A stretch of 64,000 nucleotides of DNA from an uncultured Acidobacteriia bacterium (GTDB lineage Bacteria > Acidobacteriota > Terriglobia > Bryobacterales > Bryobacteraceae). The notes beneath the pieces are model-generated. The model was not told the origin of the DNA. It saw nothing but the letters and a program-made list of their open reading frames with translations, and made no database searches. This document shows positions 39,220 to 64,000 of this stretch, in pieces. The stretch covers positions 28,985 to 92,984 of the forward strand of contig CAIVPR010000179.1 in the NCBI GenBank assembly GCA_903907865.1, read 5' to 3'. Every line of letters starts with the position of its first letter. The first letter of the stretch is position 1. A program made the translations under genes and the position numbers.

Positions 39220-39572
39220 GCGACGGACTGCGCCCAGCGCAGCGCGAGGCAATTAGGCGATTGTTCACCGAGTTTCCCAAAGTGGAGCGGGTAGTTCTGT
39301 TTGGCTCGCGGGCCATGGGGAATTGGTCGGAAGGTTCCGACATCGATTTGGCCTTGTTCGGAGACGAGCTTCAGTTGCGCGACGAACTTCGGATCGCGGC
39401 ACGACTCGAGGATCTTGCGCTGCCGGTCCGGGCGGACTTGGTCCGCTACGGCGTTGCGGACGAGGCGTTGCAACTCCATATCGCGAGGCGTGGTTTGGAA
39501 CTCTTCCTGAAACCCCGCATCGGAACGCTCGCAGAGCCCGGGGCTGCTGTAGACGGGGGATCTGCCCAATAG
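39216..39572 (+). CDS. minimal nucleotidyltransferase antitoxin (MntA/HI0073-like)
   Basis: A 118-residue nucleotidyltransferase with the polymerase-beta signature VVLFGSRAMGNWSEGSDIDLALFG (GS...DxD) at about residues 26-50. In characterised HEPN-MNT pairs the MNT protein silences the toxin by adding AMP to its RX4HXY tyrosine, and both residues are present here. The C-terminal tail after LELFLKP (about 18 residues, Gly/Ala-rich) looks like an extension towards the next gene. Its TAG stop shares one base with the GTG of the reverse transcriptase gene, so translation of all three is coupled. Confidence 0.88.
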   Translation: MSDGLRPAQREAIRRLFTEFPKVERVVLFGSRAMGNWSEGSDIDLALFGDELQLRDELRIAARLEDLALPVRADLVRYGVADEALQLHIARRGLELFLKPRIGTLAEPGAAVDGGSAQ

Positions 39573-41038
39573 TGACGAAGGAGTTCGTTCTGGAGGCACT
39601 GCTTCGTCACAATTATTTCCCAATGCAGAAAATGCATCAGGACGAGATGCCGCCGGTTTTCTCGTCTACCGGCTTCCAACCGTCTGTTGCTGAAGCGCTT
39701 GACGCTCTGGCCCCACGGAAAGGCGGGTACGACAGCGTCGAATACCGGGCAACCCGGTTCAATCTCGTCCCCCGCAGACTCTCAATCCCACACCCTCTTC
39801 CGTATTCGCGTTTGGCTCGGCGGATCGCCGAAAACTGGGAGCATGTGAGCTACATTGCGGGGAACGAAGTCAGTGTCATTCGACCACGGCAGCACGCCGA
39901 CGGGCGCTTGATCGTCATGGACTACGAGAGTTCCCGGGCAAAACAGCAGCGAGCCAATCAAATGCAATTTGGATGTAGGTTCACTGCCCATGCTGACGTG
40001 GCCAACTGCTTCCCCAGCGTGTACTCCCATGCCGTGCCGTGGGCGGTCGTAGGATTCGCGGAGGCAAAGTCCAAACAGGGGCCCGCTTTCAAAGATCTAT
40101 GGTTCAATCAACTCGATATTGCTCTGCGAGCAACGAATCGAAACGAAACGAACGGCGTCGCAGTCGGGCCGGCGACGTCGAACGTCTTGTCCGAAGCGAT
40201 CCTCGCCCGCGTCGATGAAGAGCTGTCAGAGTTCAGGTTTGTCCGCTTCATTGACGACTACACGGCCTACTGCCACGACTACAACGAAGCCGAGCGGTTC
40301 ATCGACCGACTGGGAATTGAGCTTGGGAAGTACAGATTCTTGCTGAATCCTGTGAAGACCAGAATCTCAGCACTTCCGAGCTGGGACAGTGACTGGGTCT
40401 CGGGACTCGCCCTGGCGCTTCCGCACGGCAAAGGCTTGGATCCCAGCACGGCTCAGCATTACCTCAACCACGCGGTCGCCATGTCCCACAAGGTCCCGGA
40501 TGCCAGCATTCTGAAGTTTGCGGTCAAATCGCTTTGCGGGCGGCACCCCGATGCAGGGGTTGTTCGATCAATCATGCCCCAAGTATTAGGCCTCGCATTC
40601 CACCGACCAGCCCTCCTCCCGGCGATGGCCAGCTTGTTCAGCAAGCTCGGTTGCGGACCGGGTTCGGAATACAGCGCTCATTTGGCCCGTATCGCTGCTG
40701 AACACGCCCGACAAAGGCGTTCGGACGGCATGTGTTGGAGCCTTCACTACCTCAATAAGTACGGAGACGGGGTGACGGATGACGTTGCCAATGCCGTTGT
40801 TGGAACTCAGGACTGTTCGGCGATGGCCATCTTGGGCACCATAAGCCCTCAGCACCTCCCAATTATCATTCAATTCAAGACAACTCTGGACGGGGAGGAT
40901 GCCTACGCTTTGGACCGATACTGGCTACTGCTGTACCAGCTATTCCGCAGCGGCAGCATCGACAATCCATATCCCGGTGACAAAACATTCGGCATCCTCC
41001 GGGATGCCAAAGTGGATTTGATCAGGAGCGGGCCGTAG
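39572..41038 (+). CDS. defence-type reverse transcriptase (UG/Abi/DRT-like)
   Basis: A 488-residue RNA-directed DNA polymerase. The opening LLRHNYFPMQKMHQDEMPPVFSS resembles the YFP...(E)(L/M)PPxF signature of abortive-infection and 'unknown group' RTs. Motif A is HADVANCFPSVYSHAVPWAV (about 137-156), motif B NGVAVGPATSNVLSEAILARVDEEL (about 190-214) and motif C RFIDDYTAYCHD with FIDD in place of YADD (about 223-234). After about residue 290 comes a helical region with no maturase or endonuclease domain, so this is not a group II intron. The GTG at 39572 overlaps the MNT stop. A role in phage defence is inferred; subgroup (for example Drt3b- or Drt4-like) not settled. Confidence 0.82.
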   Translation: MTKEFVLEALLRHNYFPMQKMHQDEMPPVFSSTGFQPSVAEALDALAPRKGGYDSVEYRATRFNLVPRRLSIPHPLPYSRLARRIAENWEHVSYIAGNEVSVIRPRQHADGRLIVMDYESSRAKQQRANQMQFGCRFTAHADVANCFPSVYSHAVPWAVVGFAEAKSKQGPAFKDLWFNQLDIALRATNRNETNGVAVGPATSNVLSEAILARVDEELSEFRFVRFIDDYTAYCHDYNEAERFIDRLGIELGKYRFLLNPVKTRISALPSWDSDWVSGLALALPHGKGLDPSTAQHYLNHAVAMSHKVPDASILKFAVKSLCGRHPDAGVVRSIMPQVLGLAFHRPALLPAMASLFSKLGCGPGSEYSAHLARIAAEHARQRRSDGMCWSLHYLNKYGDGVTDDVANAVVGTQDCSAMAILGTISPQHLPIIIQFKTTLDGEDAYALDRYWLLLYQLFRSGSIDNPYPGDKTFGILRDAKVDLIRSGP

Positions 41039-61765: not shown

Positions 61766-62023
61766 ATGGTGATGACTCTGCGGGAGAGCAAGGCGAAACT
61801 CTCGGAACTGGTGGAACTCGCTTGTACAGGCGAAGATGTCCTGATATCCGTTCGTGGAGTAATCCGCGCACGTTTGACGGCAACGGCAATTCCGTCACCC
61901 GAAACCATGGGCGAAAGTTGGGCAGCAAGGCTTCGCACGCTGCAACTGGGCTGGGCGGTTCCGCAAGGGCCTGGAATGACATCCGATGAGATTCTGGCCG
62001 AGCTTCGGGCCGACCGGGACTGA
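61766..62023 (+). CDS. Phd/YefM-type antitoxin
   Basis: An 85-residue antitoxin: the N-terminal MTLRESKAKLSELVELACTGEDVLISVRGVIRARLTA is the Phd/YefM DNA-binding fold, and the C-terminal part (SDEILAELRADRD) is the likely toxin-wrapping helix. Start at 61766 or 61772; TACAAT lies 6 nt before the first. It precedes the PIN-domain gene by 4 nt, the classical antitoxin-first order, and probably autorepresses the pair. Confidence 0.85.
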   Translation: MVMTLRESKAKLSELVELACTGEDVLISVRGVIRARLTATAIPSPETMGESWAARLRTLQLGWAVPQGPGMTSDEILAELRADRD

Positions 62024-62027
62024 GGCG

Positions 62028-62486
62028 ATGGATTACTGGGACACCTCGGCACTCGTCAAGCTTTACGCGCCGGAGTCGGATTCCGAGTACTTCATCCAGA
62101 GAATCGCCCGGCAGGCGGCACCGATCATGACCTCGGCAATCGCCGAGACTGAAATGGCTGCCACGTTGGTGAGAAAGGAACTCGCCGGGGCGCTTCCGCG
62201 CGGCGGCTCAAGTCGGGCTTTGGCCGAGTTTCGATCCGACTCCCGTTCCGGCGCAATCATTCTGATCCCCTACGGTGCGCAAATAGCCTCGGAAACGGAG
62301 AGGATCGCCCGCTTGGCTGCGGAGTCGATGCCACCCCTTCTGATCCGCAGCTTGGACCTGATCCACGCGGCGTCGGCAAGTTTGTTGGGGGCCGATGCCT
62401 TTGTCGGGTCTGACAAGCGACTCCGGGACCTTGCGTCGCTGTTGGGCTTGCGCCTGGTTCCGACCGTTGCCTCGACACTATCTTGA
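62028..62486 (+). CDS. vapC: PIN-domain (VapC-type) toxin
   Basis: A 152-residue PIN-domain ribonuclease toxin. MDYWDTSALVKLYAPE supplies the first Asp, SAIAETEMAATLVRKE the Glu, RSLDLIHAASASLLGADAFVGSDKRLRDLA the two C-terminal Asp residues, so the four acidic metal ligands are complete and the toxin should be active. GAGG sits just before the ATG at 62028; the ORF track start lies inside the antitoxin gene. VapC toxins typically cleave tRNA or rRNA; the target here is unknown. Confidence 0.88.
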   Translation: MDYWDTSALVKLYAPESDSEYFIQRIARQAAPIMTSAIAETEMAATLVRKELAGALPRGGSSRALAEFRSDSRSGAIILIPYGAQIASETERIARLAAESMPPLLIRSLDLIHAASASLLGADAFVGSDKRLRDLASLLGLRLVPTVASTLS

Positions 62487-62876
62487 TGGCCAAAGTCGGA
62501 ACGGTCTCGCGCGAAACCATGCCCGCCTGCTCGTCCTTGGTCCCGATGGGTGGCGGGCAACTGAGCGGCTTGGAAACCGGGACAAGTCCCGTTGTACAGG
62601 ATCTGATCGTCTATGGTGTCCAAGGGGGGCTGAGGCCGACGGCGGAGGTGGGAGCAACCACGCTGCTTGGAAAGGCCGCCCCATTGAGCAGAGGAGCCGA
62701 AAGCGAATACGCGCCTCCAAGGCGCGTGGCCGTGTTGGCCAGTGGCCACGATTTGCAGGCGAGGGACCACTTGGATAAATCCGGCAAAGGTCTGCGATTG
62801 AAAACCCGGCTGGTTGCCAACCTGCCCCACACAAACGGTGCCGGTACCCGAAGCAGTGTTGGAAGAAGCCGTTGAC
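62487..62876. other. 390-nt non-coding region with hairpin repeats
   Basis: Between vapC and the reverse transcriptase remnant. Contains ACGCGCCTCCAAGGCGCGT (62709-62727), a GTGGCC/GGCCAC stem (62726-62748) and GGCTGGTTGCCAACCTGCC followed by CCACACA (62808-62832), the last matching the single hairpin at 26899. I searched this stretch for an A-rich repeat that could be a DGR template and saw none. Confidence 0.6.
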
Positions 62877-63924
62877 TCAGAACGCAATCGCGCGAAAGAC
62901 GTTTCTCCGAAGCTCCCAAGTGTCCCCGTGCATGGCGTGCCCGATCCACGCGAGGACCGACTGCCGGACCGTCTCCCATTCCACCGCGCGCGCGCGCCGC
63001 ATCGCGGCAAGGTACTGGAGCCTCCGCCGTGCGCGCACCACGTTCGACCGGACCAGCCGAGTCCGGTCCGGGAACACCCGCCAGCCGAGGAACGTCACCC
63101 CGTCCGCCACGCGTTGCACCGCAGTCTTCCCCGGGTGCGGAGTCAGGCGGAACGGGATCAGGAAGTTCTCGATCCGTTCGCGGGCGGCGTGCAGCTTGTG
63201 CTTGTCGTCGTCGAGGAGGAGCAGGTCATCCACGTACCGGGCTTGGCAGGAAGGCCGAAGTTCCCTGGCCACGAAGTGGTCCAGCGGGTTCAGGTAAACG
63301 TTGGCGAAGAACTGCGAGGTCTGGTTGCCCAGCGGCAGTCCACGCCTGCGCTCATGGGGCGTGAACAGGGTCGCCGGGGAAGTACCAGTTGACGGTTTCC
63401 TGAGGATTGGAACTATGGATGATGGTCTTGGCGAGTTCCATGCTGGGGCGGCATTTCACCACCCGCTCCAGTTGGGCGACCAACACCTCGTGGTCAATCG
63501 ACGGGAAGTACTTCCGAATGTCCAACTTGAGCGCGTACCGATAGCGCGCGGCTGCGCTTCGCACATGCCGGAGCGCCGCATGGGTTCCCAGGCCTTTGCG
63601 GCAGGCAAACGAGGCAGGGTGGAAGCGCCTCTCAAAGACGGGCTCCAGGACACCCGTCAACGCGTGGTGGACGACCCGGTCGCGGAACGGTGCGGCCGAT
63701 ATCTGCCGGGGCTTGGGCTCGTGGATGCGGAAGACGTGGTAGGGGCCTGGGAGGTATTCGCCCGCGATCAACTCCAGCCGCAGCCGGGCGAGCTGGGTTT
63801 CGGTGTCGCACAGGAACGCCGCGACGTCGGGCCGAAACCGCTTTCCGGCAGCTGCCAGCTTGAGCGACCGGACCATGTTCTCCCAGCCGGTCAGTTCCTC
63901 CCATAGGTTGCCGACGCGTTTCAT
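62877..63924 (-). pseudogene. DGR-type reverse transcriptase interrupted by a frameshift
   Basis: Two minus-strand frames together make one RT of about 349 codons. Frame one (63924-63352): LTGWENMVRSLKLAAAGKRFRPDV, HEPKPRQISAAPFRDRVVHHAL, FERRFHPASFACRKGLGTHAAL and motif A LKLDIRKYFPSIDHEVL. After FPGD at the CCC of 63368-63370 the frame shifts, and frame two continues FTPHERRRGLPLGNQTSQFFANVYLNPLDHFV, then RYVDDLLLLDDDK and GVTFLGWRVFPDRTRLVRSNVVRARRRL. LGNQTSQ in motif B and the whole layout are those of diversity-generating retroelement RTs. Either decay, a programmed shift or a sequencing error; TR, target gene and Avd would be upstream, outside the window. Confidence 0.85.
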
Positions 63925-64000
63925 CTTAGGGCTTTTCCCAATTACTGTACACCGAGCCGGAAAGCGAGCCAGCTAGTTTGGCCGAGCCGCGCGCGCAAGC

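Follow-up and report, generated by a model that had tools for sequence, protein, structure and literature searches.

A frame-broken reverse transcriptase of the diversity-generating retroelement lineage at a contig end in an acidobacterial genome, and the probable remainder of its locus

A reverse transcriptase (RT) gene split between two reading frames lies against the right edge of the DNA analyzed here, raising the question of which system the enzyme belongs to, whether it could still work and where the other parts of its locus lie. The window, the whole 64-kb stretch analyzed, corresponds to bases 28985-92984 of contig C179 (92984 bases), so its right edge is the end of the contig and sequence beyond position 64000 cannot be read directly in the assembly. 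Taken across both frames, the RT gene occupies 63924..62877 on the minus strand. The 5′ half (63352..63924) encodes 190 aa from an ATG start to an out-of-frame stop and contains the N-terminal motifs through NWYFPGD. The second frame, which forms the 3′ half (62877..63368), resumes at LFTPHERRRGLPLGNQTSQFFANVYLNPLDHFV..ARYVDD.. and runs to 62877, carrying LFTPHERRRG, LGNQTSQ and YVDD through FRAIAF and a stop codon. Either half separately exceeds the Pfam RVT_1 cut-off of 29.6 bits (37.9 bits for the 5′ half and 33.3 bits for the 3′ half).

Comparison of the joined halves with solved structures identified the BPP-1 diversity-generating retroelement (DGR) RT (8ub7) as the best match, with residues 2-339 aligned at E 2.1e-53, whereas group II intron RTs gave far weaker matches (2e-22). 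A scan of named genomes yielded 80 related loci, and we searched these for pairs of repeats whose differences are confined to adenines of the template. Such a pair of template repeat (TR) and variable repeat (VR) was present near the RT at 58 of the 80 loci, and a control search with cytosine as the mutable base returned 8 of 80. The window RT is nested among these TR/VR-associated RTs in a starred clade with the RTs of loci L111 and L124 (support 99/96), and relatives in Cyanobacteria, Thiomargarita and Nitrospirota fit DGR clade 5 (Roux et al. 2021; Dore et al. 2024) by description only. Matches in NCBIfam and PADLOC were weak and of a general RT kind, the highest being to a group II intron RT (125 bits, cut-off 300), as might be expected of a group II intron, retron or defense RT; such an identity is nonetheless scarcely credible, as the BPP-1 RT is ahead of other solved structures by 30 orders of magnitude and the majority of relatives adjoin TR/VR pairs. 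Judged by its sequence, the window RT is a member of the DGR RT lineage, and the initial annotation, which had called a DGR-type RT at 62877-63924, is confirmed by the structural match and the tree, coordinates included. Rfam returned no RNA family at the gene. Other RTs were also seen in this genome, including an antiviral RT in the window at 39323-41038 on the plus strand (best match Drt4, PADLOC E 9e-162), an RT fused to an apparent Cas1 on C79 (L002) and an RT adjoining an apparent Cas2 on C156 (L003), the latter two likely CRISPR-associated.

To define the break, we used DNA comparison with L111, L110, L131 and L153, whose reading frame is continuous at the equivalent of 63366..63372 (minus strand). 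Relatives carry one additional residue at this site (FPGD-D/N/T/S-LF), which identifies the change in the window as a net two-base loss; of the two causes first proposed, a one-base excess or a two-base loss, only the second stands. The accompanying claim that a single break splits an otherwise preserved gene is borne out, as relatives read through the site and, of the 103 columns conserved to 94% or more among acidobacterial relatives, the window RT deviates at 4. At the same columns most intact relatives deviate at 0-6 positions and the decayed L153 at 11. Because deviations elsewhere in the RT are so few, the break is thus apparently young, or else a sequence error. The initial annotation had considered a recent, programmed or erroneous shift, and the programmed origin finds no support, since no relative examined is broken at this position and the site is an indel relative to them.

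Good preservation of both halves might still point to programmed frameshifting, or to a two-subunit RT whose halves are both produced and cooperate, but we regard this as highly improbable. All relatives examined read the site in a single frame with one residue more, and the frameshifts that do occur in relatives sit at other places, near 309-314 in L131 and in the N-terminal part of L153. By inspection, the second half also has no obvious start codon before LGNQTSQ; an ATGA at 63352-63355 leads into a third frame, and the earliest start listed for the second half is a GTG at 63272. We give a minor but real chance to a sequencing or assembly error that conceals, in the living cell, an active DGR whose RT is intact. 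The break is the only lesion, every other motif is kept, and the site lies ~630 bp from the contig end. Against an error, the two other DGR RTs of this genome are disrupted as well, in one case by an intron and in the other by a deletion, neither of them a typical read error, and a frameshift or stop occurs in 4 of ~34 acidobacterial relatives. Lesions elsewhere in the gene include stops at residue 104 in L116 and residue 28 in L133; the break in L182 is written XXXX and is probably a gap. DGR activity requires an intact RT frame, and with the frame interrupted ahead of the catalytic motif the window copy should yield no active RT.

No TR, VR or Avd was found anywhere in the 64-kb window, and for the TR this holds for the pair search, for the TRs of C174 and C184 and for an nhmmer TR profile (best E 3). 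Among the relatives the TR usually lies 20-90 bases 3′ of the RT stop. A TR in that position was sought for the window RT and none was found in the window, giving rise to an early reading of the gene as an orphan. We dropped that reading because the window RT's sisters keep the TR upstream of the RT, at 591 bases in L124 and 538 in L111, with Avd between TR and RT; the lack of a TR 3′ of the window RT is therefore uninformative. The resulting order, VR-TR-Avd-RT, is that of the window RT's two nearest relatives and would place the other parts beyond 64000, so that their absence from the window is expected.

The window ends in a repeat. The left half of a palindromic MITE-like element (63926..64000) starts 2 bp before the RT start codon, and the contig ends in its arm, CCGAGCCGCGCGCGCAAGC. 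A strict pattern for the whole palindrome returned no copy in our search, its gap limit being too short, and we instead used aligned copies on C100, C40 and C77. Bases 1 to ~90 of contig C70 align with the right half of the element that is complete at these three sites, and the halves at the window end and the C70 start agree in order and orientation, with ~8-12 bases missing between them. On the other side of the gene, ~45 bp past the RT stop, lies a dispersed repeat (62686..62832) with 42 matches in the genome and without a TR. Next to the RT, at 61767-62486 on the plus strand, we also observed a putative toxin-antitoxin pair formed by an antitoxin-like ORF followed by a PIN-like ORF.

C70 (7685 bases) carries the kinds of parts that the window lacks. 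All of its DGR and conflict genes listed here are on the minus strand, in the order SLOG, TIR-iSTAND, MoxR-like AAA, FGE target with VR, TR and bAvd, and the contig ends at base 1 without an RT. The target gene (C70:1196-4309) encodes 1037 aa with an FGE-sulfatase domain (PF03781, E 4e-47) at the protein end, and the VR (C70:1200-1312) lies at the end of this gene. The TR lies at C70:872-984, and a bAvd gene (Pfam PF22296) follows at C70:228-569, on the same strand as the RT if the contigs are joined. Of the 26 TR adenines, 19 are changed in the VR, against 2 of the 87 other bases (Fisher 7e-14).

Full-length Avds and RTs of this family each number three in the genome; two of each already adjoin one another as pairs, and the C70 Avd and the window RT are the ones left unpaired. 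From the parts, their order and the element halves, C70 likely joins the window at 64000 as the rest of the RT's DGR locus, in which case the TR should lie beyond Avd, at ~1 kb from the start of the RT. The forecast in the initial annotation of a TR and an FGE-fold target just past 64000 is accordingly very probably right, as C70 has those parts in the order seen in the two nearest relatives and its start fits the window end, although the join itself is something we infer. No read or contig spans C70:1 to window:64000, and the Avd, TR/VR pair and FGE target count for the window RT only if this join holds, the window itself having 76 bp upstream of the gene with no Avd there. The C70 Avd groups with the Avds of L122, L124 and L111 with weak, unstarred support (71/80) in a tree without the distant row L170, and falls at the base when L170 is included; TR similarity did not single out C70 as the partner of the L111/L124 clade. 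A join other than C70 is possible, given that the first 19 bases of contig C43 are identical to the last 19 of the window, although the right half of the element is missing from C43. A true orphan, an RT fragment dispersed between MITE-like repeats and outside the C70 locus, would fit the close flanking repeats, 2 bp and ~45 bp away, and a whole window free of TR, VR and Avd. It is made unlikely by the complementary halves of one element on the window contig and C70 and by the leftover Avd/RT pair.

We consider it probable that the window RT is the broken RT of a cellular DGR in a Bryobacteraceae (Acidobacteriota) relative, with the rest of the system on C70. In the intact system, by homology, RT and Avd would copy TR RNA while misreading adenines, and the cDNA would overwrite the VR at the end of the FGE/C-type-lectin-fold sensor of a MoxR-TIR ‘ternary’ conflict system, such mutagenic retrohoming diversifying the ligand-binding end of the sensor. 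The sensor role is putative and follows a proposal of Dore et al. for targets in MoxR-type ternary conflict systems (PMC10907252). In the window copy, the net two-base loss before motif B (63366-63372) would deprive the product of LGNQTSQ and the catalytic YVDD. Between the RT and the SLOG, TIR-iSTAND, MoxR-like AAA, FGE target, TR and bAvd parts on C70 there would be one or two MITE-like elements, at which the assembly would have broken. In that case only another RT working in trans could still alter the C70 VR, which would otherwise be frozen.

The assembly, which is 98% complete, yielded no DGR RT whose frame is unbroken, although one could hide in a gap. At a locus divided between C158 and C174, the VR lies in a trypsin-NACHT-FGE protein accompanied by Avd, RT and TR, and the VR departs from the TR at 19 of 27 adenines and at none of the 84 other bases. 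The RT of this locus (L057 on C158, 79-134, and L056 on C174, 1-170) is interrupted by a group II intron (RF01999) that sits directly behind the YVDD codons, and a further copy of this intron has its ends on C26 and C175. We considered whether splicing would restore this frame and set the idea aside, as splicing with standard GUGCG..AC ends leaves the joined exons one base out of frame, with the 3′ boundary uncertain. At the end of C184 (L058, C184:33584-34481), a DGR RT is intact to FFANL, where a deletion removes YVDD, and Avd and a TR follow on the opposite strand. A separate TR/VR pair at ~12.5-14 kb on C184 (L068) has 17 of 25 adenines changed and no other base; it sits beside a 26-residue Avd remnant with no RT seen adjacent, its TR is 94% identical to the C70 TR, and it may have been served in trans.

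In this one genome the lesions comprise an indel before motif B, a deletion over YVDD and a group II intron after YVDD. They could suggest that DGR RTs of this bacterial group have repeatedly been switched off around the catalytic core after diversifying a defense sensor, the intron case being one that splicing could reverse. We hold this to be improbable; if true, mutator loss fixes a useful sensor.

The BPP-1 DGR has the order VR-avd-TR-RT. The window RT is homologous to that of BPP-1 (8ub7). With C70 as its other part, the locus described here would also share with BPP-1 an Avd of the same family (PF22296 on C70) and adenine-specific TR/VR differences, and would depart from it in its cellular host, an FGE-type sensor in place of a phage tail protein, the order VR-TR-Avd-RT and the broken RT frame. 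The sister RTs of L124 and L111, with the TR upstream and Avd between, have intact frames in contrast to the window RT. The Avd gene of L124 runs into the RT gene, its stop overlapping the RT start, but the C70 Avd and the window RT would be set ~300 bp apart by repeats.

A closer precedent comes from Thiohalocapsa PB-PSB1, where Dore et al. 2024 (PMC10907252) described several DGRs in one genome and degenerate DGR loci with MITE-like arrays in or replacing RT or TR, transposon-interrupted RT genes and pseudogenized parts, the targets having a C-terminal lectin fold and being tied to NACHT and MoxR-TIR ternary conflict systems. The present genome resembles PB-PSB1 in its several DGRs, MITE-like repeats, pseudogenized parts and lectin-fold targets tied to conflict systems. 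It differs in its host phylum (‘Acidobact’ is absent from the text of PMC10907252), in an RT broken by a small indel, in another broken by a group II intron and in the finding of no unbroken DGR RT. In a literature search that was not exhaustive, we found no published DGR RT with its catalytic motif interrupted by a group II intron. Degenerate, MITE-riddled DGRs next to conflict systems are thus already described (Dore et al. 2024), and the window RT is an ordinary decayed DGR of this kind. All three DGR RTs found in this one genome are disrupted, while changes are confined to adenines in two of its three TR/VR pairs, so that resequencing could test when the mutator was lost; Acidobacteriota are also added to the published picture in which DGRs diversify conflict-system sensors and then decay through mobile repeats.
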